DNA of 34,099 nucleotides from assembly GCA_028281535.1 (NCBI GenBank), contig JANQJS010000005.1, positions 1-34,099 on the forward strand. The letters are read 5' to 3'. The stretch is from Sedimentisphaerales bacterium (GTDB taxonomy: Bacteria > Planctomycetota > Phycisphaerae > Sedimentisphaerales > SM23-30). The notes under the pieces were generated by a model. It saw only the letters and a program-made list of their open reading frames with translations. It was not told the DNA's origin and did no database searches. Below are positions 4,450 through 29,770 of this stretch, in pieces (position 1 is the stretch's first letter; each line of letters opens with the position of its first letter). A program made the translations under genes and the position numbers.

Positions 4450-4484
4450 GAAATTATCGCATTAAAATATTATGGAGAATTAAA

Positions 4485-5438: not shown

Positions 5439-5480
5439 TAGATTTATTATATAACAGATAAAAGTTTTAGGATATATCCA

Positions 5481-6131
5481 ATGAAAAAGGGATTTACTTT
5501 AATAGAACTTGTGATGGCAATTGGAATTGTTACGGTTATTGGAATTGCTTTGATGGTCGTTGGTAGGAACATTTCTGAAAGGTCAAAAATTAGAACAACT
5601 AAAAGTGTTATTAGTTTGCTTTCAACAACATTGGAAGAGTATAAAGCTGCAAAAGGCGCTACTTTTGTTGGATATCCAGTTGAGCCGAAACCAATAAACA
5701 ATACAGATACCGTTGATTTTATAAAATTAACGACTAGCTTAGCGGATTTACAAAATCAATTTACTTTTAATAGTGTCCTAAGTAATAAAGGACGTCATGA
5801 AACAATTGTTTGGGGGGATCAATTTGATCCTGTTGCCGGACGTTGGGCTTTAACCTCTATTGAAATATTTTATGTTGTTTTAAATGATATTCCTTCATGT
5901 AGGGAAATGTTAAGAAAAATACCTGATAGTATGTTGCTGAATGCAGATAATGATTATGTTGATCGTATAGAAGGAAAAGTGCCGCTTATGGAAATTAATG
6001 ATATGTGGGGAAATCCATTATGGTATCAAAGTCAAGGGGTCGGTGCTGGTAGTAGTTTTCCAGTTATTATTTCAGCGGGGCCAGATGAGATATTTTTTTC
6101 AGCAGACGATATAATATCGACAGAAATTTAG
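5481..6131 (+). CDS. GspG-like pseudopilin
   Basis: A 216-residue prepilin-like protein. The leader MKKG is minimal, with predicted cleavage after G4 and mature start FTLIELVMAIGIV, including the conserved Glu+5. One hydrophobic N-terminal helix is followed by a soluble domain. The C-terminal stretch IISAGPDEIFFSADDI matches the GspG-type 'SAGPDG...DDI' ending. It begins 42 bp after the previous pseudopilin gene, with an AGGA site, and ends 39 bp before the dockerin-like gene, so it is probably in the same operon. Sequence similarity to its upstream neighbour is confined to the helix and the C-terminal motif. Its exact position in the fibre is not deducible. Confidence 0.82.
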   Translation: MKKGFTLIELVMAIGIVTVIGIALMVVGRNISERSKIRTTKSVISLLSTTLEEYKAAKGATFVGYPVEPKPINNTDTVDFIKLTTSLADLQNQFTFNSVLSNKGRHETIVWGDQFDPVAGRWALTSIEIFYVVLNDIPSCREMLRKIPDSMLLNADNDYVDRIEGKVPLMEINDMWGNPLWYQSQGVGAGSSFPVIISAGPDEIFFSADDIISTEI

Positions 6132-6170
6132 TTTATTAAGAGATCTTATTCTAAGGAGGAATATAGGAGA

Positions 6171-6884
6171 ATGAATTTGTTTAAAAGTATGAAAGTATAT
6201 TTGTGTTGCCTTTTTGTAATGTGTATTTCAATTAATAGTGCAGATGGTTTTCAAAATTGGGAAATCCAAGAGTTATATACCAATGTAGATGGTTCTATAC
6301 AATATGTCGAACTCTATACTAGTTTCTCTGTACAAGCATTTATAAATGGTAAGAGTATCAATTCAAGCTATGAAAGTGGTTTAAATAATTTTACGTTTTC
6401 GGGGAACGCACCATTTAATACGATTAATCGGCATTTGCTTATTGCGACTCAAGGCTTTGCTGATTTAGATGGTGCTCCTGTGCCAGATTATATCCTTGCT
6501 GATGATTTCCTTTTTATTCCAACAGAGAGTGGAGATCCTAATGGGGCAAGTGTAGATTTTCTTGGAGCAGATATGGTATCTTATTTGGAAATTCCTGTTG
6601 ATGGGTTTAACTCTCTGCACTTTGATATTGCTGGGAATTCTACCGAATCTGTTAACACGCCAACAAATTATAATGGCGATACTTTTACAATAATTCCTGC
6701 TTGTCTGTTTACTGCTCTTGCAGGTGATTTTAATAATGATTGTATGGTAGATATTTTAGACTATGAATTATTAGTAGATGGCTGGCTGGGTACCTATTAT
6801 ATGGACGATTTTGGCATTCTCTCAAACAGCTGGCTTGTTGACTGCCTGGCTACACCAGAGGATCCTTTATGTCTGGGGATGTAA
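6171..6884 (+). CDS. Secreted protein with dockerin-like C-terminus
   Basis: A 237-residue protein of unknown function. A signal peptide is clear (basic MNLFKSMK, hydrophobic core, cleavage likely near SADG at 23-26). The body begins WEIQELYTNVDGSIQYVELY (30-49), a pattern I recall from secreted proteins of this kind but cannot assign. Residues 185-206 contain GDFNNDCMVDILDYELLVDG followed by WL, a dockerin type I-like Ca2+ loop with Asp/Asn ligands, and a weaker second copy follows (MDDFGILSNSWL, 211-222). Cysteines 191, 224 and 233 could form a disulphide. It has a strong ribosome site (AAGGAGGA). It sits inside the pseudopilin cluster, so it may be a substrate or accessory of the machine; this is inference. 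Confidence 0.8.
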   Translation: MNLFKSMKVYLCCLFVMCISINSADGFQNWEIQELYTNVDGSIQYVELYTSFSVQAFINGKSINSSYESGLNNFTFSGNAPFNTINRHLLIATQGFADLDGAPVPDYILADDFLFIPTESGDPNGASVDFLGADMVSYLEIPVDGFNSLHFDIAGNSTESVNTPTNYNGDTFTIIPACLFTALAGDFNNDCMVDILDYELLVDGWLGTYYMDDFGILSNSWLVDCLATPEDPLCLGM

Positions 6885-6980
6885 TCTAGGTAATATTTCT
6901 GACGCTAATTTATTCTGCATCAAACCAGCTTTTTTGTTTGATCAGGGTGGGTAACTAATTTTACAAAAAGAGTTTATATG

Positions 6981-7013
6981 TATGTGGTCAATTATCAACC
7001 ACATACGTATAAT
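6981..7013 (+). promoter_or_regulatory. Putative promoter with inverted repeat, upstream of the GspH-like gene
   Basis: TGGTCA at 6985-6990 and TATAAT at 7008-7013 are 17 bp apart and match the promoters at 1343 and 10464. Here the -35 region also forms a perfect inverted repeat: TATGTGGT (6981-6988) and ACCACATA (6998-7005) around a 9-bp spacer. This could be an operator; the repeat is not kept in the other two copies. The 177-bp gap between 6884 and 7062 shows that the minor pseudopilin genes have their own transcription start. Confidence 0.6.
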
Positions 7014-7061
7014 CTTATAGTTCAAAAAACGAACGAGTAATTAGTTCAAAGGCGACTATAA

Positions 7062-7889
7062 ATGCTTAAATACCATAAAAAACGACGAAAATCAGGTGTT
7101 ACACTACTGGAATTGACGATCGTGATATCGATTATTGTGTTAGTGACCGCATTTTCTGTTCCAAATATAAGTGCAATGATGAAGACCCACAGAGTAAATT
7201 CTGCCAAAACCATGATTCGTACTTTTATTGGTAGAGCTCAGGCCCATGCTCAGCTTACAGGAAGATTAGCTGGCGTTCGGTTTCAATTTGATCGAGATGG
7301 GTGGGAAGATGGACGCCAATATATGGTTTTGATTGAAAAGCCAGTGGGTGTATTTACAGCAGAATTTAATGCGGTTGCTGATGAGAGGCCTATTGCACTA
7401 CCTGAAGGAATAGGGGTTATTTCAACGGTTTCGGATGATTTGGATAATGATTTTGATAACTATTACCAAACAGATAACAGTGGTATTCATGATGCCACTA
7501 CATTTTCTTTTGTGTTTGCCCCGTCCGGGCGTTTGGTATTTAGATTGGTTCGTTTGAAAAGTCGAAATGTATTGGGTCCTAATTTTGATCAGGTGATGAA
7601 TATTGAAATAAATGTCGATCAGTCAGGTCGGCCAAATAATATCACCAATATTCCAGTGAATTCCGGGCTGTTATATGATGATGGGGATCATCAAGTTTCT
7701 GGAAATTGGGTTGAGCCTGTGCCTTGGTGTCGACCAGAACCAAGCACTGGTGGATTTATTATTTATGAAGTAGAAAAAATGAAATCGATTGATAGTCCAC
7801 TATTGCGTTATGAACAGTATGTTGAACGAGATTTAAATGAACTTCTTGTTAATGCCTATACTGGTGAAATAATAGAAAGTGAGGACTAG
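7062..7889 (+). CDS. GspH-like minor pseudopilin
   Basis: A 275-residue prepilin-like protein. The leader is basic (MLKYHKKRRKSG, cleavage after G12) and the mature protein starts VTLLELTIVISIIVLV with Glu+5. The region AFSVPNISAMMKTHRVNSAK continues the helix and resembles GspH (AxPxl...R). The following segment, RLAGVRFQFD...YMVLIEKP and APSGRLVF, has the beta-strand character of the GspH C-terminal domain. It is the first gene after a separate promoter and begins the order H-I-J-K typical of type II secretion minor pseudopilins. The next start is only 2 bp beyond its stop. Confidence 0.82.
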   Translation: MLKYHKKRRKSGVTLLELTIVISIIVLVTAFSVPNISAMMKTHRVNSAKTMIRTFIGRAQAHAQLTGRLAGVRFQFDRDGWEDGRQYMVLIEKPVGVFTAEFNAVADERPIALPEGIGVISTVSDDLDNDFDNYYQTDNSGIHDATTFSFVFAPSGRLVFRLVRLKSRNVLGPNFDQVMNIEINVDQSGRPNNITNIPVNSGLLYDDGDHQVSGNWVEPVPWCRPEPSTGGFIIYEVEKMKSIDSPLLRYEQYVERDLNELLVNAYTGEIIESED

Positions 7890-7891
7890 TC

Positions 7892-9109
7892 ATGTCTAAG
7901 TCTAAACAAGTGGGTCTTTATTATTTTAAATCTCGAAATAAAATCAACGGTTTTTCACTGGTTGAAATTATGTTTTCTGTCTTAGTGCTAACGTTGGGTT
8001 TGATTTTTGTTGCGATACAGTTCCCTGTTGGGATTGCAAATTCACAAAGAATGAAAGATGCGACTTTAAATATAATCAATTCCAACAATGCTAGTATTCA
8101 GACAGAGCTGCAGTTTAAAGCTTTGCCAGCGCCAACGAGTTTTGTTGTGGATTATATTAATACAGGAGCATTGCTCATTGAAGATGGCAATGTGCATATG
8201 TTAATTAAACCTAATGTTGTAAATAACCCACCGAATAATACGAATAACAGGGACCCAATTGTATTGGATGATCCAGAAGATAATTTACTGCTAGGGCCAT
8301 TGTTGTCACAGGATTATAACATAATATCCGCACTTGGCTTTGCTCCGTTTATTACGACATTACCTGCTTTACCTACTGATCTTTTGTCAGGAGGTAGTTT
8401 AGGTAATATTGTATCACCGCCAGTGAGTGCAAGTGACTCAGACGTGTTGGAGTTAGCAAAGCTCCAGGCAATTCAGGATCGAGGGTTAACGATTAATGAA
8501 TTGATATTTGCCGTAGCGAAAAATAGAAAAGAAAATTGGTGTGCATTGTATCTAAGCAATACTTCGACGGTAAATAAATATCGATATTACTATTTCTCAT
8601 TAAAAAATACTAATAAAGGTTTGAGGTATATTGGGCAGCAGTTTAGCGCAGCGACTGGTGATCCAACACCTGATACTGCTATTAATCATCTGCGACATTT
8701 TCCTGTGCCATGGCGTATTGATTTAAACTTTTATGATACCGTTGGCAATACAGAAAGAAATTATATAGGTACAGGTACTCAGACAGTGCCTGAATTTACT
8801 GCTCCTGATACTTTTGAGCTAACAACAGCGGGTTTTTATGACAAAATAATAGTTGAAGATTCCATACTTATAGATGCTGATTTTAATCTTGGTCTTGGCT
8901 GGGTTAATAATGGCTATGTTTACAAAGTCAAAGAAGTTGTTCGAAAAGAAACCTCTGGTGTTGCCAAAGTGTTTGTTAAGTTAGATAGTCCTTTGCGAGA
9001 CAATTTAAATTTTATTTGGATATTTCCTCCTGCCTATGATATTGCACAAGGTGTGTTTTCCACACAGCAACCTGTAATTAATGTCGTGGAAAAAACTGTT
9101 CAATACTAA
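7892..9109 (+). CDS. GspI/PilV-like minor pseudopilin
   Basis: A 405-residue prepilin-like protein. The leader is long for the class (20 residues, MSKSKQVGLYYFKSRNKING), and cleavage would leave FSLVEIMFSVLVLTLGLIFV with Glu+5. That helix sequence resembles the GspI/PilV type (FSLvEvllAl.iL..gl). The rest, about 360 residues, is much larger than classical GspI and I recognise no domain in it. Start choice: ATG 2 bp after the GspH-like stop, with GAGGA in the preceding codons. Place in the order supports the GspI assignment more than the soluble part does. Confidence 0.75.
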   Translation: MSKSKQVGLYYFKSRNKINGFSLVEIMFSVLVLTLGLIFVAIQFPVGIANSQRMKDATLNIINSNNASIQTELQFKALPAPTSFVVDYINTGALLIEDGNVHMLIKPNVVNNPPNNTNNRDPIVLDDPEDNLLLGPLLSQDYNIISALGFAPFITTLPALPTDLLSGGSLGNIVSPPVSASDSDVLELAKLQAIQDRGLTINELIFAVAKNRKENWCALYLSNTSTVNKYRYYYFSLKNTNKGLRYIGQQFSAATGDPTPDTAINHLRHFPVPWRIDLNFYDTVGNTERNYIGTGTQTVPEFTAPDTFELTTAGFYDKIIVEDSILIDADFNLGLGWVNNGYVYKVKEVVRKETSGVAKVFVKLDSPLRDNLNFIWIFPPAYDIAQGVFSTQQPVINVVEKTVQY

Positions 9110-9119
9110 TTCCTTATTA

Positions 9120-10436
9120 ATGATGAATATAAAACTTAGAAAAACTGGCGTAACTTTAGTCGAAATGGTTGTGGCTCTTGCGATCATGCTTGGCATGCTA
9201 TTAGCTGCCAGCCTGGTGTTTAAAAGTTCAACTCAAGCTGCCGGTAAAGCGATGGCTAGAAATGATATGATGCAACAGTTGTTTGTGATGAAGCGACAAT
9301 TAGATAGCGATTTTATCGGGTTTGAAAGAAACTCTCCATTTGCAGTTATTTTTGAAAGTTCCGTTGCTGATAGTAATAGCACTGCAACGTTTTACGATAC
9401 GGATCCATCTGTTGGTACAGATCTATTTGAACGTAATGATCGCATTGTGTTTTATTCTAATGGATCATTTGATACTTGGGGTGATACAATTGCTCCTGGG
9501 AGTATTGGACGAATATTTTATGGCCAAACCAGTGATAATGAAGCTTTGACAGTGGGAGATCTTTCGCGATTAGATACGTATGAAAACTTTTCGGCAGCTT
9601 ATAATGTTTATCCAAGACGTGTATTAAGTCGCAGGATGAAAGTATTTTCAGTTGATACATCAAGTTTTAATTTTGTGAGTAATATAAATGCATTGAATGC
9701 CGTTGATAGTGCACTTTATGATTTGAATAGTATTTTTGTTCCACAATTACCACAGAATATTTCTGTATTTCCCGCTGGTGCTTCAGATTGGAGCGATCCT
9801 GCTGTTGTTGATTTTCAAGAATACTATAATTACTTTTTTGATGAAAACCAAAATATATCATTTATTCGACGGCCAAATATTTTTAATTCGGAAGTGAATT
9901 TTGGAAATCGTGCTGTTCAACGTTTATTTATGCTCCCTGATGTTACCAATTTTAAAATTGAGTTATGGTTTCCTGGTGCACGTGATTGGTTTCCAAATGT
10001 TAATGATTTAAGCTTAATCCAAACGATTAATGGTTTAAATGGCGAAGTTCCAACAGATGCCGTTTCTATGGTTAATTATAGCAATTTAGAAGAATACAAA
10101 TTTGGATTTTATTGGAATGCCCCATTTGATGCTACTTTTGATCAAGGTGGTACAACTAAGAGGAAAAACTTCTTTACTCCAAATATTTTAAATGGAACGG
10201 GGTATGATACAGGTCGAATCGAATGGCGAAGTGAGACTGCTATTACTGAATTAGTTAATGCAACGGGTGTCAATGGCATTGATTTAGATGGCGACGGGAC
10301 GGAAGAAACTTTCACTTTGGGGTGGACTTCCAGTTGGCCGTTGGCTATACGATTTACATTTACCTTACATGATAAAGATCGTAGACATTTTCCAGAGGGT
10401 GAAACGTTTAGTTATATACTTAACTTGCCACAATAA
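9120..10436 (+). CDS. GspJ-like minor pseudopilin
   Basis: A prepilin-like protein of 438 residues from the ATG at 9120. An in-frame ATG at 9081 would give 13 more residues and overlap the previous gene by 29 bp. I prefer 9120 or the adjacent 9123 because the leader MMNIKLRKTG then has the usual length and charge; neither start has a strong ribosome site, so translational coupling is likely. Cleavage after G10 gives VTLVEMVVALAIMLGMLLAA with Glu+5. The helix followed by a run like KAMARNDMMQQLFVMKRQLD resembles GspJ, where an Arg-rich helix ('R..a...l..dl') follows. The large soluble domain has no motif I recognise. Confidence 0.78.
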   Translation: MMNIKLRKTGVTLVEMVVALAIMLGMLLAASLVFKSSTQAAGKAMARNDMMQQLFVMKRQLDSDFIGFERNSPFAVIFESSVADSNSTATFYDTDPSVGTDLFERNDRIVFYSNGSFDTWGDTIAPGSIGRIFYGQTSDNEALTVGDLSRLDTYENFSAAYNVYPRRVLSRRMKVFSVDTSSFNFVSNINALNAVDSALYDLNSIFVPQLPQNISVFPAGASDWSDPAVVDFQEYYNYFFDENQNISFIRRPNIFNSEVNFGNRAVQRLFMLPDVTNFKIELWFPGARDWFPNVNDLSLIQTINGLNGEVPTDAVSMVNYSNLEEYKFGFYWNAPFDATFDQGGTTKRKNFFTPNILNGTGYDTGRIEWRSETAITELVNATGVNGIDLDGDGTEETFTLGWTSSWPLAIRFTFTLHDKDRRHFPEGETFSYILNLPQ

Positions 10437-10463
10437 AACAACTTAAAAAAATATTTCTGGTTG

Positions 10464-10492
10464 TGGTCATTATAAAAACACCTGCGTATAAT
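10464..10492 (+). promoter_or_regulatory. Putative promoter of the GspK-like gene
   Basis: TGGTCA at 10464-10469 and TATAAT at 10487-10492, 17 bp apart, form the third member of the promoter type seen at 1343 and 6985. The leader that follows is about 65 nt and contains a small perfect hairpin, CAGGTA-TT-TACCTG, at 10532-10545, just ahead of the AGGAG site. Confidence 0.6.
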
Positions 10493-10563
10493 CTAATAGG
10501 AAAGCAAGAATACACGCTGGGGGCACGACAGCAGGTATTTACCTGAAATTAGGAGTTCAATCC

Positions 10564-13500
10564 ATGATTTACACCAATAGATCCAGACGCGGAACAGCAT
10601 TGTTGATGTCAATTATTTTGACATCCTTACTATTTGTCATAGGTTTGTCATTTTTGCTAAGTAGTCAACATGACAAGCAGTCTATTGCTACGCTTGCAAC
10701 GAGTAATAGTGTTGGTGGTAGCGGCGGTGGCGGTGACGGTGCTCTAGGGGCTGTTATCGTACAAATAAGTAATGTTTTGGTGGAAGATCTTTTCGGGCGA
10801 TTACCTTCAGGTAGTTTAGATAATAAATTGTTAGATGGAGCGGGAGATTTTACGGGTGGAATTCCGAATGAAGAGCAAGATGAAAATTGGGATTACCCTG
10901 GACCAGATGATCCCTGGTTAGCTTCTTTGGAACCTGAGCTGTATGATGATGGTGCAGGTACAAGCTATTTATTTTGGCGGCAGATTACAGATCTTTGGAA
11001 TGACCAGTTTAATATTTCAAGTGCGACGGGTATTTTGAGTGGATTGCCTCATTACGATCCTGCAGATCGACTTGATGGTTCTCAGTGGAATGGTAGTAAT
11101 CCAGCTCACCTTGTTACTGGTTTAGAAATTAGTGATGTAGAACCACGTATTATAAGCGATACGGAAGGCACTGAAACCATTGTAGAAGGTGGCGATTGGC
11201 TGGTTCCTGATGATGTTTGTAAATGGGGTGGTAGAGCTGATGCCGATGGAGATGGTGTGGTTGATGCCCGTTGGGCCCGGATTCCAAATATCACGGGTGA
11301 TGGTGGTGTCAATTTATATGCTGCTGTCAGAATAATTGATAACAGCGGTATGATTAATGCTAATACTGCTTACCGTAATCCTGAAAGAAAAACCAATGGT
11401 GCTACTGGGCCAGCTCTTGTGACAACTGGTGGGCCCCAGTGGGATGGCTCACGATTGTCGCATATCAATTTTGAAGATGTTATCAATTCAAATACGGATG
11501 ATGATGAAATTGGTTTGGATCAGCCACGTGGTAATACGATCCAAAATGCAAAGTATGGAAATATTATTAATGTGCCTTTAAAATCTGATTATGATAAAGA
11601 TACCAAATATGAAAATGATGTTGCCACACGTTTAAAAAACCCAAAAGTCTATTTACGAGCCGCACCAGATCCTTCTGAAACTTATAATCCCTTCTATATT
11701 ACTGATGAATTAATTCTTCGGTATCGATATTTTCTAAACGCACCTTTGATTGGGCGAATAGGTATTACATTAGATGACGATGCGTTTTACACATGGCCAA
11801 GAACCTTTTCACCTGCTCCAGGTGTTAATGGTAAAGATTTGCCCTATGTAATTGGTGAAAGTGTTGATAACTGGTTCGATAAAGTGACTTCTGGGCCAAC
11901 TTTATTGAACTCTAATAGCGGTTGGCTACCCGTTGCTGGGGCTACTCTTGGCACTTATAATCGTCGCGTGTTTACAACCACATATAGTTATTCACGAGTC
12001 TTGATACCTAATTTATCAACAGATCCTGGTGGACTAAATTGGGATGAATTTTCAAACATGCTCGATATTAGTGGTCCTGGTTTCGAAAAAATGCCAGATA
12101 CTTTAGTGATGAAAGATACATTAACTGGTTGGGAAGACTGGTCTCGATGGAATGACACTGATAATTCAAAATGGCTATATCGTCCAGTTAGTGTGAATGA
12201 CATTGATGATGGAATTTCGAGTGTAAACGATCCAACGATTGAACAATTGGCTGCGGCGATTTGGCTAGGTTTACCTGATACCACAACATATATTGATACA
12301 CTACCAGAAGTTACTAATATGTTTTTAGATACCGCATCAGGGCATGACTCTCGTTCTTTGTTGGCTTTCCAGATGGCAGTAAACTTAGTTGACTATATTG
12401 ATACGGATTTTGAAGTTACCAAATTAACATTAAATAATGGGAATATTATTTATGGTTATGAAGGTGGAAACCCTGGATTGAATATTACTCGGGTAGCGAC
12501 TTCAATTAATGATACAGGAGGTACTCATTATGCTATCCAGCTATATAATCATAGTAGTTTACCTATAAATTTAAGTAACTGGCGTGTAGAAGTTCGAGCA
12601 CCTTCTGGCTCTTCGATTTATGATATCCCCGTTGGAGTTATCTCTGAACTTCCAGCTGGAGAATCATTGGTTTTAATTGATTCTGATACAACATCTTCAG
12701 ATGTAGGATTTACTTTAGGTGAATTTGGTTCGATCCCAAAATTAACAGCTGATGCGTTTGTTGGTGCTACGGCATTTAAATTTGATCCTAATGATACGAT
12801 AGTTGTTTTGGGGCCAACTGAAAATAATGATAATGATTACCCATTTGATTCTATTATTTTTGATCCCAGCTTTAGTGCTTCTACGCCGTCAAATTCGAAT
12901 ACTCGTAGAGTTTACAACTTAAATGACCGTACTGGTAATCTTATTGGTTCTGGTGATTATCAACGTTTGGCTTTGAATGTAGATCCCACATTTAATACAA
13001 CATTTGATGATAGTGGGGTTGGAGTGTTAGATAACCCAGGTGATAGCTCTATTCCAAGCACAACAATAGCTATACAAACGGAACCAAGAGATTCTGGAGA
13101 ATTGTATACGGTTGGCGAACTTTATAATGTTCTATTAGTTGGTGCAAAAGATCTTTTAAGTGGCAAAGTTGATTATATAAGTGAAACAGAAAGTTGGTAT
13201 CGATTAAGTTCTATTTCAGGCACTAATTGGGGGCGATTAGATGCTGCTCTTGATGTGACTGGTGTAAAACCTTATCAATATGCATCACATTTTATTTCAA
13301 CATTTAATCCATTTAATGATTTTGTAGATAATGACGGAAACGGAAGAAGCGACAGTCCTGAAAAAGATGAAGTTGATAATGATAATGATGCCTACGACAG
13401 TAATGGTGATGGAATCATAGATATCAATGATGATAAATTTGATGGAAACGATCAAGTGAACCCGATTCCTGCTGATGATGAATCTTTTGCGAATTATGGT

Positions 13501-15236: not shown

Positions 15237-18200
15237 TTAAGTAATTTTAATTTTGAATTTCCAGCTACCATAGTGGATGTAGTCTGCCCAATCGATGGTG
15301 GCCATTGTTGGATGATTGTCCTTGAGTTTAAAAACGGCCTTTCTTCCTTTCACAACCGCGTCACCGATAGTGGCGCCCTGCATTAGTTTTGTGTAAAAAG
15401 TTTCGCCGAATAGTAACGCTGCGGCATCGCCTACAGGCCAGTAAGTACCAATGAAATTTGCTACTCCGCCGCGGAGCATCGATTCAGCTATACTCGCATT
15501 TGTCTCGAGCATGTCAGCTGAGTTTACACTTATAGATTTTACTTTCTTGCCTGCCACTAATTTTCGGACACGGCCTGATTCACAAGCATTAAAGGATATG
15601 AGTGAAGGTAACGCTGTGATATCTGAAAGGTGTTTACCGCGGAGCACCTGATTGTTGGCACAGATTAAGCCGCAGGAAGCGCGATCATCTGGATCGAAAT
15701 ATGCGTGCCCTGCAAAGTGAACTATGTCGTAATTCTCGGATTCAAAAGCCATTTGTATAGCAGGGAGGGTTGCCTTGTCGCCTCGTAATTCGACTAGATC
15801 TGTTGATGGGAATTTCGCCATGATTGCCTTCATGCGATCACCTTCTTGTTCTGCGCCTATCAAGTCTTTTGTTGGATTGGTAATTAGCAGTATCCTGAGT
15901 TTCTCATCACGTTGGCGTTGGTTCATCCACCGTGCCATAGACATGTCGGATAAGTCGAGCTTACGACTTAGACCGGACAATGCCAATGCTCTATTTTTGA
16001 TATAAATTGTTTCCCAGGGGATTCGTGAGGCTTGTAGGTCATGAATGATGACCAGATGCCGCTCACTTCTCCGGGAAAGAATCTGGTGGATTGTTTCGGG
16101 CAAAACCATCTTAGCCAGGGTATTGCCGAATTGACAAAGATCGTCTGGTTTGTCATTGATTAACAGCTTGAGATGGTTATTCAGTGTGCTGGGATTGATC
16201 TCAGCAATGTCCGTGATAATTGTGGCTTTACCATCGGCAGTTAGTAATGAACATTGTAAGGTCTTTTCGTTGAGAGTTCTTACTATGAGGTAATCAGGAT
16301 CCTTTTCGAGTGTGAGGTCTCGTGGTATTGTTCTGATTGGTGTGTGTAGCGTGGACAGAGGAATCTCATCGAGCGTGACTTCGACTTCATCGAACAAAGG
16401 TGTCATTGCCAAGTGGAGAATCTCCTGTTTTAGTAAGCGATATTGTTCGCTGTCGTATTCGCACAGTGTAATAGTGTGGACTCGCTGATTGTTTTCGACA
16501 TCTTTCATTCCGCGAAAGAATCCAGTGATTATCATCTTTAGAGCTGATCCCATCTTGATACCTGATCCGGTACCGAAAATGACAGTTGCAAAATCTTCCA
16601 CGTTTGTCATTGCCATCGAACGTGCTATATTTTCCGCGACGAGTTCAAGGCTGTTGAGAGTAAAGGTATCATAGCTTCCCAGGCCGGCTAGGATGACCAT
16701 ATCTGTGGAGAGCGCATGTCGTCCAGTTGGAACGATGAATAGTTCGCCTCGATCTCCACTAAACATACGCCTTTCAGTCATCAGACCGATTGCATTATTG
16801 AGGTGTTCGTTGATGGCGGCGGCAGGACCGGTAGGCGTTACATCTTTAAAAACACCAAGGACGATGGCTCGAGAATTGAAAGCGGCGATATCACCGTTTG
16901 CAATTTGGATATTGAGGCGATGCTGGCGTCGTCGACCGACGATGATCGACTCTTGACTAAATTCCTGGGTGATCTGGGTCTGAGGGGCGGTAATGCTTTT
17001 AGGTAATCCCAACGGTGCGGCAAACTCCTGTATAAGAGAGCGTACCTCAGCTTGGCTGAGCCGTTCGGCAGATCGCCCCTGGAGTGGATCTACCCTAAAT
17101 TCAGACTCGGGCACAATCTTTGTGCTACTTCGATGGGGTGTCCAGCTTGTGGTAAGTTCATCAGTCTGGCCGGTTTCGATCAGGTCGATTACGGACCGTA
17201 TCACGCGAGTATTATTTGGCAGGCTGCCATGTTTTTCCTCGACGTAATATGTATCTACACCGGGGAGCCTGGCGAAATCAAGTGGTACCGTTCCGTCTCC
17301 TGCTAGGCCATATGTATATTCGTAGTCATCTCCATCACGGCGGCAAGATATAATAGTTTCCTGATTGATCCCAGCGATAAGTTTGAAGCGTGAATCCCCC
17401 GGGGCTAGTTGAGATTCAAGATCTGCGGCATCTTTTAATAGGTTTGGACGGACACGTGGTGAAGAGGGCCAGTTTTTGGCATCAAAAAAGTCAATATCGG
17501 GAAAGACCGACCGAGCCGGAAGCATTTCACATAATCCGGGGAAACTGTTGAATATATTGGAGCTTAGTTCTTCCGGATTATGTTTCTGGTCGAGCCTGGC
17601 AAGCGTTTGAATAATGGAGTGAGTGCCTCGTAAGGCAAGCACCGGAGAGAAAGAGCCGTAGTTGGGTGTCCCCATCATCAGGAGTTGGCGGACCAAATGA
17701 CCTTGGTTTTTCTCCTCTAGTATTTTGATCGCGGCACGGCTGACTAGGCCTCCCATACTATGGGCGACAAGGTGGATCCCACGTTTATTGTGCTTGGATT
17801 GAGTAGATTCTTTGATGATTTTATTGGCTAGATCCGATCCTGCATGCCCAATCGGTTTGCGCCAATCGAAGGGATAGAAACTGACGTCATATCCTGCTAT
17901 TCGCAAGTTCAGCTTTAGTCGGAGATAGGCAAATAGAATAACGCCAATTGGTATAATTTTTGAGTTTTCAGATTTTATCGCGAGTTTTTTCAGGTTGCCA
18001 GTGATAACATCAATGAAGTCTAACCAAATACAATCATCGAAGAAAAATTTGCGTTTTTTCCCTAGTTTAGAACCCATGATTCCGGGTAGTAGCAACACTC
18101 TAGCCTTCATCGCGCGAGTACGTTGAGAATCTCTAGCCAAGGTAGTCAGTTCTTCATATTGTGCTTCGCCAAAGTAGGCTTCGAGTAAATCGCGATCTTC

Positions 18201-18410
18201 ACCACTAATCAGGGCCTGCTCGACGCTTTCATCCCTGAGATCGAAGGCGGAACCAGAAATATCACCTCGACTCACGATTCCGAATGGACTGGTGGAGGGG
18301 ACATCTGCAGCTAGATCATTAAGATTAGCAGAACGGGATCGGGAGGAGCGATTTCTTTTGACACTGTCTTGTTTTTTGCTTGATTGTCGAATTGTTTTTT
18401 TCTTAGCCAT
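15237..18410 (-). CDS. LCAT-type hydrolase / M17_N-like / CHAT protease fusion
   Basis: A 1057-residue, three-part protein. (1) After a basic, Ser/Lys-rich N-terminus, residues 103-415 look like the lecithin:cholesterol acyltransferase branch of alpha/beta hydrolases: LLLPGIMGSKL (106-116), nucleophile S218 in AHSMGG, acid D372 in GDGTVPL, and H394 in KHGSL. (2) Residues 498-640 resemble the N-terminal macro-like domain of leucyl aminopeptidase (M17_N): GDIAAFNSRAIVLGVF, GDRGELFIVPTG, ILAGLGSYDTFTLNSL; no M17 catalytic domain follows. (3) Residues 785-1057 are a CHAT caspase-like protease with H902 in DIVHFAGHA and C943 in ISFNACESG, plus GTYWPVGD (988-995). All catalytic residues appear intact. 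The SIR2-family gene lies 100 bp upstream on the same strand. No signal peptide is visible, so a cytoplasmic role is expected. An abortive-infection effector is my inference. Confidence 0.88.
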   Translation of the reverse strand: MAKKKTIRQSSKKQDSVKRNRSSRSRSANLNDLAADVPSTSPFGIVSRGDISGSAFDLRDESVEQALISGEDRDLLEAYFGEAQYEELTTLARDSQRTRAMKARVLLLPGIMGSKLGKKRKFFFDDCIWLDFIDVITGNLKKLAIKSENSKIIPIGVILFAYLRLKLNLRIAGYDVSFYPFDWRKPIGHAGSDLANKIIKESTQSKHNKRGIHLVAHSMGGLVSRAAIKILEEKNQGHLVRQLLMMGTPNYGSFSPVLALRGTHSIIQTLARLDQKHNPEELSSNIFNSFPGLCEMLPARSVFPDIDFFDAKNWPSSPRVRPNLLKDAADLESQLAPGDSRFKLIAGINQETIISCRRDGDDYEYTYGLAGDGTVPLDFARLPGVDTYYVEEKHGSLPNNTRVIRSVIDLIETGQTDELTTSWTPHRSSTKIVPESEFRVDPLQGRSAERLSQAEVRSLIQEFAAPLGLPKSITAPQTQITQEFSQESIIVGRRRQHRLNIQIANGDIAAFNSRAIVLGVFKDVTPTGPAAAINEHLNNAIGLMTERRMFSGDRGELFIVPTGRHALSTDMVILAGLGSYDTFTLNSLELVAENIARSMAMTNVEDFATVIFGTGSGIKMGSALKMIITGFFRGMKDVENNQRVHTITLCEYDSEQYRLLKQEILHLAMTPLFDEVEVTLDEIPLSTLHTPIRTIPRDLTLEKDPDYLIVRTLNEKTLQCSLLTADGKATIITDIAEINPSTLNNHLKLLINDKPDDLCQFGNTLAKMVLPETIHQILSRRSERHLVIIHDLQASRIPWETIYIKNRALALSGLSRKLDLSDMSMARWMNQRQRDEKLRILLITNPTKDLIGAEQEGDRMKAIMAKFPSTDLVELRGDKATLPAIQMAFESENYDIVHFAGHAYFDPDDRASCGLICANNQVLRGKHLSDITALPSLISFNACESGRVRKLVAGKKVKSISVNSADMLETNASIAESMLRGGVANFIGTYWPVGDAAALLFGETFYTKLMQGATIGDAVVKGRKAVFKLKDNHPTMATIDWADYIHYGSWKFKIKIT

Positions 18411-18510: not shown

Positions 18511-19638
18511 TTATCGTGTCAATTCATGAAGGATATCGGGTATTTCATGGTGATCGTCGTACCAGATGCAGTAAATACCAAGTTGCTCAAGAACTCGGTA
18601 TTGCTCAATTTCATCAACCTTCTGTACTGCTCTGAGGATTCCCAGAATCTCATTAACGTATTGTGGGCCCTTAACCATTGGAGGTGGTATAGAACGCGTC
18701 TGCTTCCGAGAAGTTTTACGGCCAACGACTTGGCTTTTCGCTCGCGACTTAACACCGCTGCTCTGGAAACGCTCAATGTACTCGCGGGCTTTTTGATCGA
18801 TCGCATCGACTTCGCGTTGGCTAGTTTCGTAACGTTTAGGCCGCATCATTAAAGCATAGTTACATGTTTTACCGGGTGTACGCATCACAGCGTCAAGCAA
18901 TCGACGCATATTTCTATCTGAGAGAGATAGACCTACCATTAAGCCGACTGTAGTGCTAAAGCAGTTGATTTGGACCAGATTAGACCATGAGTAGGGGGCT
19001 GACGCTGCTAAGTTATACTGATCTTCAGTAAACACAATTTCACTCCCGCCGGAACCCGTTCCTTCAGCAGGTACGAAACCATGCACGTGATAGATTGGCA
19101 ACAAATTTTCTGGCAGGGATGTATTATTCCAGATGGGTTGGTATTGTTTATTGTTGACCACATGTTCCAGGAGGTAGTCATAATTGTAGGTGACCACAGC
19201 GTTTAGGCCTTGGTTGGAGTTGGTCTTTTTACATAACTTAGCTACGGCCTTAAGTGTACTGTTACCTCTCCTTATCATATGTGGATCTGGGATTTCGATC
19301 CCTTCTTCATTAATCCAGGGATATAACGTGCTACGCAGCTGCTCAAGGAAATCATTTTGGTCTGGATAAAGATTCCGCAAACGACGTGCTGTGATATCTA
19401 GAGTTTCGCCAGATTGCTTGAGGTGATACTCAGCGATAGCGTATAGGTAGTTCGGGAAAGGCCTCCAACCATCGAGTTCTTTTCTGCTGATCGCATCGTA
19501 ATACATCGCAGCCACAAGTTGCTCCCATGTTGGCAGACCGCTGGCAACAGAGACACCAGCGCCCAAGTATAGCGTGAGCTGTTTCTTGCTCCACGCTTTT
19601 CTCATTTCATGTATTGCTTGCTCACGTATATTCGTCAT
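18511..19638 (-). CDS. SIR2-family NAD-binding protein
   Basis: A 375-residue protein of the SIR2_2-like type found in many anti-phage systems. Motifs in order: LTLYLGAGVSVASGLPTW (21-38; NAD-binding GAGVS), TYNYDYLLE (150-158; Asn and Asp of the nicotinamide pocket), YHVHGF (183-188; likely catalytic H186), FTEDQYN (203-209), and GLSLSDRNMRRLL (236-248). The zinc-ribbon cysteines of true deacetylase sirtuins are absent, so NAD hydrolysis or ADP-ribose signalling is more likely than deacetylation. The C-terminal third has a basic linker (about 297-317) and an unknown tail. There is no transmembrane segment. It is the first gene of a two-gene unit with the CHAT fusion; the ribosome site is weak (GGTG). 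It was called from motifs only. Confidence 0.88.
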   Translation of the reverse strand: MTNIREQAIHEMRKAWSKKQLTLYLGAGVSVASGLPTWEQLVAAMYYDAISRKELDGWRPFPNYLYAIAEYHLKQSGETLDITARRLRNLYPDQNDFLEQLRSTLYPWINEEGIEIPDPHMIRRGNSTLKAVAKLCKKTNSNQGLNAVVTYNYDYLLEHVVNNKQYQPIWNNTSLPENLLPIYHVHGFVPAEGTGSGGSEIVFTEDQYNLAASAPYSWSNLVQINCFSTTVGLMVGLSLSDRNMRRLLDAVMRTPGKTCNYALMMRPKRYETSQREVDAIDQKAREYIERFQSSGVKSRAKSQVVGRKTSRKQTRSIPPPMVKGPQYVNEILGILRAVQKVDEIEQYRVLEQLGIYCIWYDDHHEIPDILHELTR

Positions 19639-25049: not shown

Positions 25050-27866
25050 TTATATATCATTCAACTCTTGTTGTATCTTTCTTTGCTCTAGCTTGTTCAT
25101 TTCTAATCTCGGTTGTATTACAGCTTCCCTCTTATGAAGAGATTCAATCTCAGTTTGATTTCGTTTAAACGTTTCATCTATTTGACTATGATGGAAGATT
25201 GAAACAATATGATTCATGATGACCTTTGCATCTTCCTCCTCGATATCTACTAGAACTAATTCTATCAGATTTGACTGATCGAGATGATGCGCTATGAAAT
25301 GAGATCGAATGTCTAGGATTGGGTTTTGATTGTTTTTATACCATTGGGTTTGTTGTAGTTCTTTTTGCCCTAGTACTTTATTCAAAAAAGCCGTGCTGAG
25401 TAATAATGTTTGCGCACTTTTCAATTCACGTTCGATAAAATCAACATTGTTTTGCTGGGATATATCAACGCGATATTTTAGTGTTAAAGATAACCTGGGT
25501 TGTAAATGATCAGAAATTTCATAAGAAGGTTTGGCAATTCGCTCAAATTTGAACCCCTGTGGGTTATTTCTGGAGATAGCTGAGAGCTTATTGATCTTTA
25601 GTTCGAGCTCAACTAACTCTGATTCTAATCTTTGTTGAGTTTGTTTTAATTCTTCTGTTTGATCGGCTAATTCTGAGGTCTGGTTGAGTTTTATAGTTAT
25701 TTTTTTAATTTCTGAATCAATACCTGATAAATAGTCATTTCCTTGGACATCTATTATGGTCATTTTATACCCTTTGATTTGATTATCCAATTCATTTTGT
25801 AGATGCTCAATCTCATCGTTTAATATCTCCACATCTATGATGTTCACTGATGCGGGTAATTTATTAAGTTGTTTAAGCTCTTTCTTTTTTGATTCAAGTT
25901 CCTTTGTGTAATACTCAATATTACCTTTGTATGAATATTGATATCTAATTTGTTCATTAATATATTCTGTACGTTTAGTTTGCCAGGTGTTTAATTCATT
26001 CAAAAGAGAGCGTATTTTCCAATGATCGTTTGTGGTTTGTTGATGGTAAGTAACCGGTGTTACTTTTGCTAAACTGGCGGCAGGAATGTCTGCTGAGCTC
26101 GTAAATAAAAACTCATTTTCAGACTCTTGTTCAATCTTCGATTTACTGTTTTCGGTTGTGCTGGATGAATCTGATTGTTGTACTATAACATTTTCAAACT
26201 GATAAATTCTATCACCAGGTAAAATGGATAGCGAATCATATTTTTTAATTTTTTCGTTATGAATCGCAAGGGGGGGGATAAATCCTGCTTCTGGGTCATA
26301 ATAACCTAAGCGAATCAAATTAAATTTCGAGTGGACATCTATCGACGTACCGGCAGCACCAACAATTTGACGTAAAGTAAAAATTTGTCCTTTCGATGGT
26401 TTAAATGGATTGAAGCCTGGCCTTTGGGGATTTTTGAAAATAAATGTGTCTGGTTTTGATACACGTGACCAAGTTTTATTGATAGAATGATCTTTGGTGT
26501 CACTAAACTGCAATTTGTTATCATCTATGTTTGAGATAAAGCCGGTATAAATTTTATTCTCACCATTTTCAGGTTGGTGGTTAGTAATAGTTAAAGTGCC
26601 ATCTTCGAGTTGCCATGTTCCTTTTCGGATCTGATTTACGTTTGATGCGTAAACCCATGTATGGTTTGAAAGAAAATGATGATAATATTCTGTTAAAAAT
26701 GATGATCCCCTCCATGTTCCAACTAGTTTTTCCTCCATGCTATTTAATGTTTCAGCTTTGGCCATAGGCAATAATACGATGGCAGCTAACATAATAGTGA
26801 CAGCACCTGCAATTCCTAATTTCATCGATTTGGGAATAGGCCGATGTGTCATATGCTTAATCCTTTGGGCCAGTGCTTTTTTCGATTCAGCAACACCCAT
26901 AAGTCGTAAGGATAATGCTGGGCTCGCTAAATTCATCTCAGCGATTTCGATTAATGTGTTGCGATAAGTAGGGGCCTGATCACCAAGAACAACCTGGACG
27001 CCTTCGTCAACGGCTTGTTCCCGAATATTGCGAAGGATTGCGTTGGAGATCCAAACCAGCGGGTGAAAGAAATAGACGATCTGGATGAGAGTTTGCAGGA
27101 AATTAATCGGTAGATCGTAGCGTTTAATATGCAATAGCTCATGAGTCAGTATGGCTACCTTTTGTTCTCGACTTAATTTATTGAGTAATGGTAGGGGCAG
27201 TAAAATCGTAGGATTATGCAGGCCGCAAACCGCAGGCGAGGATAGCTTAGAAGATATGCGAATTTTGATTCTTTGGGGTGTCAATTTAAGCGTTTGGCAA
27301 CATTGATCCAGTAGACTCTGCCATGAGTCATCTGCAAGTTGAGACTGACAGATCAAAGTATTAATGTGTTTTGCACGATTCACAAGGAGAATGAGCAGAG
27401 TAACTATGCCAAAAACCCACGTTATGAATATAATAGACTGCCAAGACAATGAAATGGAGGCTACTTGGCTTATGTTTTCTATGAGAGGTTCATTTAGTAT
27501 ACGCTCAGCGTGATTTAATGTCGCTGCGGTTGTCGAAGTATGAAGTGCTTGAGGAGAAATCGAATTACCTGGATCTTTCGTGTCAAAGTAAGCTGGAGAT
27601 TCAACCGTTGGGTGTTGCAATGCATCTCCTAACCAATGACCGATACTGATGGGGGACGTTATGTGCACAGGCAAAATCAACTTAACTAAAACCAATAGCC
27701 AAACAAAATATCGAACAATGGCTCGCGTGGTTCGGCATAGGACTAGATCAATCAAAAAGATGACACCTATTAATATCGAGGATTGAAGAAGCATATTCCA
27801 CATGTAAGTAATAAAAGTACTACTAAATTGATTTATTAGCAATATGTTCTGATTTAGCCAGTCCAT
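25050..27866 (-). CDS. M56 (BlaR1-like) sensor peptidase with SLBB/Wzz-like ectodomain
   Basis: A 938-residue membrane protein with a good ribosome site (AAGGAGAT). TM segments frame a BlaR1/MecR1-type zinc protease: HELLH at 242-246, E283 and D287 in REQAVDEG as expected third ligand and partner, and SSPAVCGLHNPTILLP (209-224). A TM segment at about 347-368 leads to the outer-face region. There a lipocalin-like domain (EEKLVGTWRGSSF...GTWQLEDGTLTITN) is followed by a segment like SLBB domains (FTLRQIVGAAGTSID...SILPGDRIYQFE), long coiled coils, and a Wzz-like part (LLLSTAFLNKVLGQKELQQT and SNLIELVLVDIEEEDAKVI). In BlaR1 homologues, signal binding outside activates the protease, which cleaves the BlaI-type repressor. 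The usual penicillin-binding sensor is absent. The SLBB/Wzz resemblance is by eye. Confidence 0.85.
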   Translation of the reverse strand: MDWLNQNILLINQFSSTFITYMWNMLLQSSILIGVIFLIDLVLCRTTRAIVRYFVWLLVLVKLILPVHITSPISIGHWLGDALQHPTVESPAYFDTKDPGNSISPQALHTSTTAATLNHAERILNEPLIENISQVASISLSWQSIIFITWVFGIVTLLILLVNRAKHINTLICQSQLADDSWQSLLDQCCQTLKLTPQRIKIRISSKLSSPAVCGLHNPTILLPLPLLNKLSREQKVAILTHELLHIKRYDLPINFLQTLIQIVYFFHPLVWISNAILRNIREQAVDEGVQVVLGDQAPTYRNTLIEIAEMNLASPALSLRLMGVAESKKALAQRIKHMTHRPIPKSMKLGIAGAVTIMLAAIVLLPMAKAETLNSMEEKLVGTWRGSSFLTEYYHHFLSNHTWVYASNVNQIRKGTWQLEDGTLTITNHQPENGENKIYTGFISNIDDNKLQFSDTKDHSINKTWSRVSKPDTFIFKNPQRPGFNPFKPSKGQIFTLRQIVGAAGTSIDVHSKFNLIRLGYYDPEAGFIPPLAIHNEKIKKYDSLSILPGDRIYQFENVIVQQSDSSSTTENSKSKIEQESENEFLFTSSADIPAASLAKVTPVTYHQQTTNDHWKIRSLLNELNTWQTKRTEYINEQIRYQYSYKGNIEYYTKELESKKKELKQLNKLPASVNIIDVEILNDEIEHLQNELDNQIKGYKMTIIDVQGNDYLSGIDSEIKKITIKLNQTSELADQTEELKQTQQRLESELVELELKINKLSAISRNNPQGFKFERIAKPSYEISDHLQPRLSLTLKYRVDISQQNNVDFIERELKSAQTLLLSTAFLNKVLGQKELQQTQWYKNNQNPILDIRSHFIAHHLDQSNLIELVLVDIEEEDAKVIMNHIVSIFHHSQIDETFKRNQTEIESLHKREAVIQPRLEMNKLEQRKIQQELNDI

Positions 27867-27974
27867 TATAAATCTCCTTTTCTTTTGACCGTTTTACGCA
27901 TTGAACCTATTCGGTTTTGATTAATATCTGCTATGCTGCCTACTCGCTCTCAAGTCATATAATTTATTAATTGA

Positions 27975-29282
27975 TTATTTGTTTAATAATTGATCTTTTT
28001 GAATTTGATAAATAGCCAATTTTCTTTCATGTGCTTTTATAAACCTTAGAGTTGAGTTTATCTGATTTACAAGGTCCTTTTTGCGTTCAGAAATTTTTTC
28101 CTCAATCATTGCTGAGACAATTATATCTAAAATCTTTTTGGTTTCATTTTCTGAGGTATGTTTCAAGGATAAAGTTAACGTCATGTTATTAGAATCTATG
28201 TTGAGCATTTTTTTGATAAGTTTTTCATGATTCTTTTTGTTTTTAGTCCAATTCAAAGACTGGAGATTACTTCTCTTTAGCAAGAGATTTAAAAAACGCT
28301 CACTTTTAAGATAGTTTTTATGATACTTGATGATGTAGTCATTGCGTTTTTGATGGGTTGAATATGAATTAATTGTGATGTCTGTTTGTGCTAAATATAA
28401 GTTTTTTTGGGACTTTATTGGCTTGAGTATTATGCCATCTGCGTCACGCGTGTATAATGAATGTAAGTTTTCCCTGTCTCGAATATAGTCATTTAATCGT
28501 TTTTGATTATTTCGTAATTTATTATTCGTTTCTTTTATTTGTTCTTCCAATAACTTCAGTTCTTCTGAGTGATCCAGGGGGGGCTCTTTAGACTCTGGTA
28601 ATAGGGATACATATAGATAGTCCTTTGGTTTTACAAAAATTTTATGTGCCAGAGATTCATCTTTGAGGTTGAGATTGTAAGGTTGAAAGGTGCCAGAATT
28701 TGATTGATGATAGTTTACTATCGTGACTTGAGGTGATCTCTCTTCAATATTAATCTCTGCCAAACTTAAAGCTTGATGGAGTGATAGCTTCTTATGAGGA
28801 TCTAACGGATAGGAATTTCCTAGAAAATTTTTATCATCATCTATAACGACAGTATATCCAGTAGGATGGATGCGGCGAAAGCGGTAAGATTTTTTGTCAC
28901 CAGTTGTACTAATAATCGTTTTTGAATGTTGACCGATGTCTTCAATGATAAAGGTATCCGTTTTATTTTCACTAGGTGTAATTCGTGTAAGGATATTACC
29001 CTTGAGTTGCCAGGTTCCCTGCTTTTCTGGACCAAGGTTTGCTTTAAAGCTCCAAGTGTTATCTTCGTGATAAGTATAATTATATAACACGAGAAATGAG
29101 CTTTTTTCCCAAGTACCTAGGATTTTTTTCTCTATGTTATTTAATGCTTCAGCGTTGGCGACAGGTAAAAATGTGTTCGTATTGATCATTAGGTAGATCG
29201 CAACGACCAAGCTCCATTGGGCTGTTATGGAAATAGGGCAGTTAATCATATGCCTTCTTCGATGGGGAAATAGTCTGTTCAT
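27975..29282 (-). CDS. Protease-less paralogue of the M56 ectodomain
   Basis: A 435-residue protein from the ATG at 29282, chosen because AGGAG lies 7 nt upstream; an upstream in-frame start would run into blaI. It has a basic N-terminus (MNRLFPHRRRHMINC), one TM or signal segment (about 20-40, ending VANAEA), and then the same layout as the C-terminal half of the M56 neighbour: NNIEKKILGTWEKSSF and GTWQLKGNILTRITP, an SLBB-like LSLHQALSLAEINIEE...FVKPKDYLYVSL, and a coiled coil plus Wzz-like LKSERFLNLLLKRSNLQSL. The M56 protease part is absent. Thus it could be a co-receptor or a decoy of the sensor. It lies between the repressor and the sensor gene, which favours one operon. The family is not known to me. 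Confidence 0.8.
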   Translation of the reverse strand: MNRLFPHRRRHMINCPISITAQWSLVVAIYLMINTNTFLPVANAEALNNIEKKILGTWEKSSFLVLYNYTYHEDNTWSFKANLGPEKQGTWQLKGNILTRITPSENKTDTFIIEDIGQHSKTIISTTGDKKSYRFRRIHPTGYTVVIDDDKNFLGNSYPLDPHKKLSLHQALSLAEINIEERSPQVTIVNYHQSNSGTFQPYNLNLKDESLAHKIFVKPKDYLYVSLLPESKEPPLDHSEELKLLEEQIKETNNKLRNNQKRLNDYIRDRENLHSLYTRDADGIILKPIKSQKNLYLAQTDITINSYSTHQKRNDYIIKYHKNYLKSERFLNLLLKRSNLQSLNWTKNKKNHEKLIKKMLNIDSNNMTLTLSLKHTSENETKKILDIIVSAMIEEKISERKKDLVNQINSTLRFIKAHERKLAIYQIQKDQLLNK

Positions 29283-29286
29283 TGAA

Positions 29287-29312
29287 AATCTCCTATATTT
29301 TTGACCGTTTAT
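29287..29312 (-). repeat. Leader sequence shared with the M56 gene
   Basis: The 26 nt before this gene carry AAACGGTC, then 8 nt, then AGGAGATT on the minus strand; the 27871-27894 region before the M56 gene carries the same two blocks at the same spacing. This is probably the trace of a duplication, or a shared translation or promoter signal. Confidence 0.5.
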
Positions 29313-29322
29313 CTGTATTGAC

Positions 29323-29715
29323 TTACTTGGGCTTTGATTTGTCAACCAGCTCTTTTAGTTGCTGCAATTCTTTTTTAGACCATTGCTCATTTTCGAGCAA
29401 AAATTGCATCATGGGAGTAAGGGCTCCATCGAAAGCTCGTTTAATCGTCTTTAAAATTTCACTTCGCTTAGCTTGGGACTCTGTAATATTGGCACTAAAT
29501 AGCTGTAAGTTTCGGATTTTACTAATTTTGAGTATCCCTTTTTTGACCATCCGATCCATCGTCGTTTTGACCGTGCTGTAAGCCCAATTTCGTTGTTGCT
29601 GTAGAGCCTCCTGGACGTTGCCAGCGGCGCAGGGTTGCTGCTGCCAGACAACTTTTAAAATATCCCATTCCGCATCAGTAATTTCAGAGTTTTCTTTTTT
29701 CTTAGATTCCGACAT
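29323..29715 (-). CDS. BlaI/MecI-family repressor
   Basis: A protein of 130 residues from the ATG at 29715 (a GTG two codons upstream, at 29721, is an alternative; GAGGTG serves as ribosome site). It matches the BlaI/MecI/CopY winged-helix family: EITDAEWDILKVVW at the start, the recognition region NWAYSTVKTTMDRMVKKGIL, then FSANITESQAKRSEILKTIKRAF and the C-terminal dimerisation helix. In the family such repressors are cleaved by the partner M56 protease, between the DNA-binding and dimerisation parts. Here the partner would be the M56 gene two places downstream. A palindromic operator lies 34 bp upstream, consistent with autoregulation. Confidence 0.92.
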   Translation of the reverse strand: MSESKKKENSEITDAEWDILKVVWQQQPCAAGNVQEALQQQRNWAYSTVKTTMDRMVKKGILKISKIRNLQLFSANITESQAKRSEILKTIKRAFDGALTPMMQFLLENEQWSKKELQQLKELVDKSKPK

Positions 29716-29748: not shown

Positions 29749-29770
29749 ATATTCGACAGGTGTCGAATAT
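29749..29770 (-). promoter_or_regulatory. 22-bp palindrome, probable BlaI-type operator
   Basis: A perfect inverted repeat: ATATTCGACA, a GG spacer, then TGTCGAATAT. It starts 34 bp before the repressor ATG and overlaps the likely promoter spacer (TTGCAT upstream, TATACT downstream on the minus strand). Known BlaI/MecI operators have the core TACA...TGTA; this one has GACA...TGTC. Next to it is TGTAGTA (29741-29747), the half-site of classical BlaI operators. The divergent gene at 29889 may share the control. Confidence 0.7.

Follow-up and report, generated by a model that had tools for sequence, protein, structure and literature searches.

Most of what is known about M56 receptors comes from beta-lactam resistance, and in those systems one chain does everything. 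In the BlaR1/MecR1-BlaI/MecI systems, a BlaI-type repressor is found beside an M56 receptor that carries HExxH, a last membrane helix, and a C-terminal sensor on the outside. According to PMC9834060, BlaR1 forms a dimer whose chains exchange alpha9 together with the last membrane helix, alpha10, and Arg294' reaches into the active site of the partner chain. The same paper places the autocleavage loop at residues 271-289 and a cut by signal peptidase at Gly331. In the mec operon, an antirepressor, MecR2, binds MecI, according to PMC6925264.

Here, we describe a locus that, judged from its sequence, appears to be a known system (BlaI-M56) with a new element. The window, which is the whole stretch of 34,099 nt that was analyzed, carries on its minus strand a BlaI-type repressor gene, gene X, and an M56 (BlaR1-type) receptor gene, in this order (Table 1). 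The repressor and the receptor have the layout described above, but the locus differs from BlaR1/MecR1-BlaI/MecI in two respects. The receptor ectodomain consists of a probable lipocalin-like barrel and a Wzz/Wzc-type base domain, with no penicillin-binding sensor, and a protease-less paralogue of the receptor is encoded between the two genes. In the open-access literature searched, we found neither a protease-less partner like X in M56/BlaR1 systems nor a BlaR1 partner with domains of the barrel or base type.

Genes and candidate operator of the locus

The repressor belongs to the BlaI/MecI family (Penicillinase_R, 100.3 bits against a cut-off of 22.6). The 938-residue protein belongs to the M56 family (PF05569, 144.8 bits against a cut-off of 31) and carries HELLH. 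It falls outside the BlaR1 beta-lactam sensor equivalog, since NF000326 gives 130 bits against a cut-off of 400, and this match is confined to residues 26-380. Gene X has no Pfam or NCBIfam match at E<=1. Neither a PF05569 match nor, on reading of the sequence, an HExxH motif is present, which places X outside the M56 receptors proper and agrees with the initial annotation, where the missing HExxH had been pointed out. Position 29312, given there as the end of the feature, lies beyond gene X and includes its leader.

Upstream of the repressor gene, a perfect inverted repeat with arms of 10, a spacer of 2, and a location at -49..-28 of the BlaI start forms a candidate BlaI operator. A comparable palindrome near the start was seen at three of the six other BlaI promoters examined in this genome. 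These palindromes differ in sequence (TTGTACAAATGTACAA, TATACGACACAGTGTCGTATA, and TGTTACATTTGTAACA on contigs C53, C34, and C45, which are loci L054, L056, and L058), as if each BlaI repressor of this genome had its own operator. The promoters on C54 and C29 have no palindrome with arms >=6, and the one on C6 has a dissimilar palindrome. The repressor gene at L058 (4150-5185, G000:C45) is an orphan BlaI-type gene with two palindromes upstream and no M56 neighbor, and it is followed by an ECF-like sigma factor gene on reading.

Elsewhere in the window, positions 15237-18410 encode a protein of 1057 aa with a lipase-like N-terminus joined to a CHAT-like end (on reading). It adjoins a SIR2-like gene at 18511-19638, and the two are possibly a defence pair.

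Table 1. Features of the BlaI-X-M56 locus, in positions of the window
Feature	Position	Strand	Basis or remark
M56 (BlaR1-type) receptor gene, 938 aa	25050..27866	-	Pfam PF05569, E 4.2e-42
Polysaccharide co-polymerase base domain, M56 residues 805-917	25116..25454	-	58.6 bits, E 3.2e-17
Probable lipocalin-like barrel, M56 residues about 383-470	26457..26720	-	AlphaFold2 model and fold comparison
Codon of M56 Arg335, aligned with BlaR1 Arg294	26862..26864	-	Profile alignment to 8exp chain A
HELLH zinc site, M56 residues 242-246	27129..27143	-	Reading and alignment of M56 proteins
Shared leader before M56 gene	27864..27894	-	
Gene X, paralogue of the M56 receptor without its protease	27975..29282	-	435 aa, ATG start at 29282
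Polysaccharide co-polymerase (Wzz/Wzc-type) base domain, X residues 316-410	28053..28337	-	32.7 bits, E 3.1e-9
Predicted lipocalin-like barrel, counterpart of the M56 domain, X residues 45-137	28872..29150	-	BLASTP; low-confidence model, beta strands 67-136
M56-derived alpha9-like segment (RRRHM, R8 = M56 R335), membrane helix, and AxA-E end, X residues 8-45	29148..29261	-	
Shared leader before X, AAACGGTCAAAA-N4-AGGAGATTT-N2-AATG	29280..29310	-	Shine-Dalgarno and start included
BlaI gene 3' end and spacer	29311..29339	-	Weak match to 27895-27922 upstream of M56 gene
BlaI/MecI-type repressor gene, 132 aa	29323..29721	-	Pfam PF03965 Penicillinase_R, E 1.1e-28
Candidate BlaI operator, perfect 10-bp inverted repeat ATATTCGACA-GG-TGTCGAATAT	29749..29770	.	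Upstream of repressor gene

Domains shared by X and the receptor

X and the receptor are similar in two stretches. BLASTP aligns residues 3-116 of X with residues 330-447 of the receptor (34% over 118 aa, E 3e-19) and, toward the C-terminus, residues 309-402 with 803-901 (30%, E 2e-4). The score of the N-terminal stretch was reached by 0 of 2000 shuffles of X, and the same holds for the C-terminal one. These alignments bear out the initial annotation, in which the 435-residue neighbor had been aligned with the M56 protein from the last TM segment onward. By itself, the middle part (X about 158-224) does not reach significance, with 102 of 2000 shuffles as good. An SLBB domain suspected by eye in this middle part is not supported; the SLBB profile gives 3.0 and 1.8 bits where shuffles reach 9.2, and Pfam gives no SLBB match at E<=10. 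Generic coiled coil as the source of the similarity, which the annotation had named as an outcome that would refute it, was rejected. The strongest stretches are the last helix with the barrel, which is the best-conserved part between the two proteins, and the base domain.

The C-terminal stretch corresponds to the base domain that builds a periplasmic ring in Wzz and Wzc, as described in PMC8285477. Both proteins match a base-domain profile made from 15 co-polymerase frames, with X and the receptor left out. In 1,590 ORFs, not counting the two hits of the window, and in 1,000 shuffles, no score exceeded 7.4 bits. The profile carries some bias, since 13 of the 15 frames had been gathered by their resemblance to X or the receptor. 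A co-polymerase of the same genome that was found via Pfam matches the receptor (E 8e-5) and not X. When the genomes of the family were searched with the receptor ectodomain, nothing but long frames matching at a single place of the query was found besides X and one match restricted to the last membrane helix. Two such frames, found with X, read as co-polymerase/tyrosine-kinase proteins with Wzz and AAA_31; in one of them, the Wzz match exceeds its cut-off. X and the receptor share the periplasmic base domain with the Wzz/Wzc/GumC co-polymerases but differ from them in having neither the flanking pair of membrane helices nor the tyrosine-kinase domain. On reading, the base domain lies close to the end of both proteins, and no second membrane helix follows it. 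In a tree of base domains, X and M56 are not sisters and both branches are long; grouping the two together is not rejected (p-AU 0.165).

The barrel was recognized in a model. The region after the helix of the receptor (207 residues) was modeled with AlphaFold2 from a two-sequence alignment, with a pLDDT of about 68-88 over residues 1-100 and a mean of 59.4 over all 207. The model has eight strands between residues 15 and 102, and this eight-stranded barrel places the domain with the lipocalin-like folds. It reaches Z 12.2 to lipocalin-like 3hty_C and Z 11.1 at 2.1 A to TP0435 (4u3q_B). Foldseek listed none at E<=0.001, with the best match at 1.8e-3 and of the same fold, and Pfam Lipocalin_4 gives E 0.13. 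A barrel fold in the M56 receptor is therefore likely, as far as a two-row model can indicate. The model of X (pLDDT 43.5) is too poor for a fold search, and its strands and helices serve as rough support. In the other M56 proteins of the locus survey described below, no barrel was seen; their matches to the receptor ectodomain span 31-42 residues at the last helix. A barrel shared with the M56 protein of genome G093 (29% over 139 residues) was rejected on reading, since the likeness fades after the helix.

The barrel model also resembles chain B of the ToxR-ToxS structure 8alo (Z 10.2, 1.9 A over 90 residues). In ToxR-ToxS, a heterodimer of sensory domains, the gene of the partner likewise adjoins that of the receptor. 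It differs in that ToxR is a transcription factor with no protease, and the likeness in fold shows no common function.

Origin of gene X and its occurrence among genomes

The likeness of the two genes extends upstream of their coding frames. AAACGGTC-N8-AGGAGATT precedes both, as the initial annotation had stated. The leader octamer alone is unremarkable (2 found against 0.87 expected, and two present in 23 of 100 shuffles). The 31-base pattern listed in Table 1 occurs twice in the window and in 0 of 100 shuffles, even at <=3 mismatches. The aligned start regions of X and M56 (-70..+12) score 33, and the best of 1,595 other pairs, drawn from 57 start regions of the same genome, scores 18. On its own, the stretch upstream of AAACGGTC has a score of 12, which 4 of the 1,595 pairs also reach. 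The weak match between the M56 leader and the BlaI 3' end is only suggestive of a remnant of the duplication, whose unit may have begun there. Five other M56 leaders of this genome were read, and the shared leader is absent from them. The first four codons of X and M56 also align (ATGrACwGrCTA), so that the lost part would extend from about codon 5 to codon 334 in receptor numbering.

The direction of the change can be read from the last helix. The first 46 residues of X (RRRHM...LPVANAE) were compared with this region in seven other M56 proteins, with the window's own left out, and 0 of 2000 block shuffles reached the summed score. The likeness of the receptor to other M56 proteins stops at this helix, so X inherited that part from an M56 gene; the M56-type sequence kept in X argues for the same derivation. 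Sequence comparison thus confirms X as a paralogue of the neighboring receptor in which the protease is gone and the ectodomain with its predicted membrane anchor is kept. Duplication followed by loss of the protease, which the initial annotation had proposed, is well supported by the M56-type last helix, the same domain order, the shared leader, and two domains that are not coiled coil.

A profile of 13 M56 proteins matches S. aureus BlaR1 8exp (E 1.9e-15) and was also aligned to 8exs; unlike this profile, a phmmer search of the PDB with P0002 gave no match. The alignment puts R335 of the receptor on Arg294 (chain segment ILSHSFNG-KKSLLKRR). The scissile bond Ser283-Phe284 lies about ten residues before Arg294 and ahead of the start of X. 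The start of X therefore lies directly behind the autocleavage loop, and X corresponds to the swapped module plus the ectodomain, which is the receptor from residue 335 to its end. R335, I336, H338, P343, and P345 are invariant in the alignment of the 13 proteins, and X retains only R, H, and P of these five. In its composition of alpha9, alpha10, and a sensor, X resembles the C-terminal autocleavage fragment of BlaR1 (284-585 in PMC9834060). It differs from this fragment in being a separate, diverged gene and not a cleavage product.

X probably arose when the leader and the receptor gene were duplicated in tandem and about 330 codons were then lost, in frame, from the interior of the copy. 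This loss would have removed helices 1-8, the zinc site, and the autocleavage loop. The counterpart of the module swapped in BlaR1 (alpha9 and the last membrane helix) and the whole ectodomain, with barrel, middle part, coil, and base domain, would have remained.

Gene X has a narrow distribution. Searches at E<=0.001 gave no match to it, either in the order (160 other genomes) or in a phylum sample of 392 genomes (391 others, in part overlapping the order set), and the window's genome is the sole member of its genus among those searched. The initial annotation had set the absence of the same pair elsewhere against its own reading. On this point it was not borne out, as no X orthologue, and so no second X-M56 pair, was found in the genomes searched. 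At E<=0.01, a search with X in 58 relatives returned two co-polymerases. A scan of genome contigs with the full-length M56 protein yielded two distant M56 relatives.

The locus survey covered 109 loci (108 others and the window); it took the best-scoring M56 matches of the order first and is not a random sample. Of the 109 loci, 108 hold M56 proteins, 113 in all, and 104 of these proteins are encoded behind a BlaI gene of the same orientation. A gene between BlaI and M56 is found in one of the 104 pairs, that of the window. An extra gene suspected in a 491-base gap at L074 was rejected, since the receptor frame itself is broken there; at this locus (4252-10678, G004:C121), the assembly breaks the M56 gene that follows BlaI into two frames. 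Complete M56 genes stand in tandem at L104, L154, and L162.

A protease-less neighbor that shares the receptor ectodomain was seen at two surveyed loci, the window and L159 (G095). The L159 neighbor follows the M56 receptor, has a hydrophobic N-terminus, and shares 145 residues with the receptor ectodomain at 67.6%. Its architecture differs from that of X by an extra ChaN/Tiki-like part, which is below its cut-off. In G094, a relative of this neighbor (44% identity) is not preceded by an M56 gene in the stretch that was read. L159 (5774-10086, G095:C95) also contains a further matching stretch with four stops between or across the receptor and its neighbor, which resembles what a duplication might leave behind.

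BlaI-M56 pairs are abundant in the order, with an M56 match in 112 of 159 genomes. The genome of the window has six further pairs, on contigs C6, C20, C29, C34, C53, and C54 (L052-L057). On reading, the ectodomains of these six are very different and include beta-helix-like parts, repeated carboxypeptidase-like domains, and a thioredoxin-like end.

Possible roles of X

We tentatively favor a reading in which X, as a duplicated and truncated receptor paralogue, co-assembles with M56 as a protease-less sensing subunit, a reading that is possible and by no means secure. We infer that BlaI, X, and M56 are co-expressed, that X is anchored in the membrane, and that it pairs with M56. All three genes would be expressed from one promoter with the candidate BlaI operator upstream of them, and the ectodomain of X would lie outside. 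The alpha9 segment and membrane helix of X would replace those of a second receptor chain, and contact between the base domains of X and M56 would add to the pairing. The mixed complex would hold two sensors and one protease. X would sense but could not cut BlaI, and it is therefore proposed to set the threshold or the ligand of the receptor. As the base domain is of the Wzz/Wzc type, the likely input would be the state of the exopolysaccharide machinery or an envelope glycan. The initial annotation had suggested a co-receptor or a dominant-negative partner. This role is plausible and is sharpened here to the swapped module of the BlaR1 dimer. The most specific form of the proposal is unlikely to hold in full: X would be a gene-encoded swap partner, contributing alpha9 with the Arg294-equivalent, the last helix, and a second sensor to a mixed M56 complex, and would tie BlaI release to the exopolysaccharide machinery via the shared Wzz/Wzc-type ring domain. 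X is comparable with MecR2 in being the third gene in a repressor-receptor operon and differs from it in resembling the outside part of the receptor. Its membrane-helix or signal segment and its periplasmic-type domain set speak against a cytosolic antirepressor role of the MecR2 type.

The main rival is that X is released as a soluble periplasmic binding protein. Made under BlaI control, it would bind the receptor's own ligand and act as a decoy, ligand carrier, or effector after a cut behind AxA. The hydrophobic stretch ends in AxA-E in both proteins (VANA-E in X and MAKA-E in the receptor), which resembles a signal-peptidase site, and AxA is found at this place in 7 of the 13 M56 proteins compared (L076 by its ORF). 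Gly331, where BlaR1 is cut by signal peptidase according to PMC9834060, falls beside AxA-E of the receptor and X when the offset of 41 is extended beyond the aligned part. X might thus be released from the membrane through this site, and the short basic segment at its start could be no more than the n-region of a signal peptide. The L159 gene, with its hydrophobic N-terminus, shared ectodomain, and own extra part, also fits such a protein. However, X keeps the cytosolic segment and the last-helix pattern of M56, which are superfluous for a plain exported protein, and we regard release as rather unlikely.

Less probable still is a purely dominant-negative subunit that fills the swap interface and the base-domain ring, senses nothing, and damps the system. 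The loss of the protease and the retention of the interface parts would suit it, but the sensor part seems to matter, given that the last helix and barrel are best conserved and that X is open over 435 codons.

It is also improbable, and more so, that X is a decaying or neutral duplicate of one lineage without a present function. The lack of orthologues in the other genomes searched and the single case in 104 BlaI-M56 pairs are in line with decay. Against it, the 435 codons are open at about 30% identity to the paralogue, and the leaders are still strongly alike. Over the N-terminal 121 codons, dS is 1.49 and dN 0.57; these figures average over X and the M56 gene and are compatible with a recent loss of function, and synonymous sites in the base domain are saturated. 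Since the frame stayed open despite the divergence, X was retained as a protein for most of that time. Very unlikely is an older, separate X whose ectodomain the receptor captured through fusion: the neighbor-gene remnants with stop codons at L159 look like such a capture, but X bears the M56-type last-helix sequence and the receptor's leader.

For the M56 family, the favored reading of X as a co-assembling, protease-less sensing subunit bears on two points. The cut in the receptor seems to coincide exactly with the edge of the swapped module, and this offers a direct way to ask whether that module works in trans and by what means the dimer governs the protease. In addition, control of the BlaI type would here be linked to a domain of the exopolysaccharide machinery.
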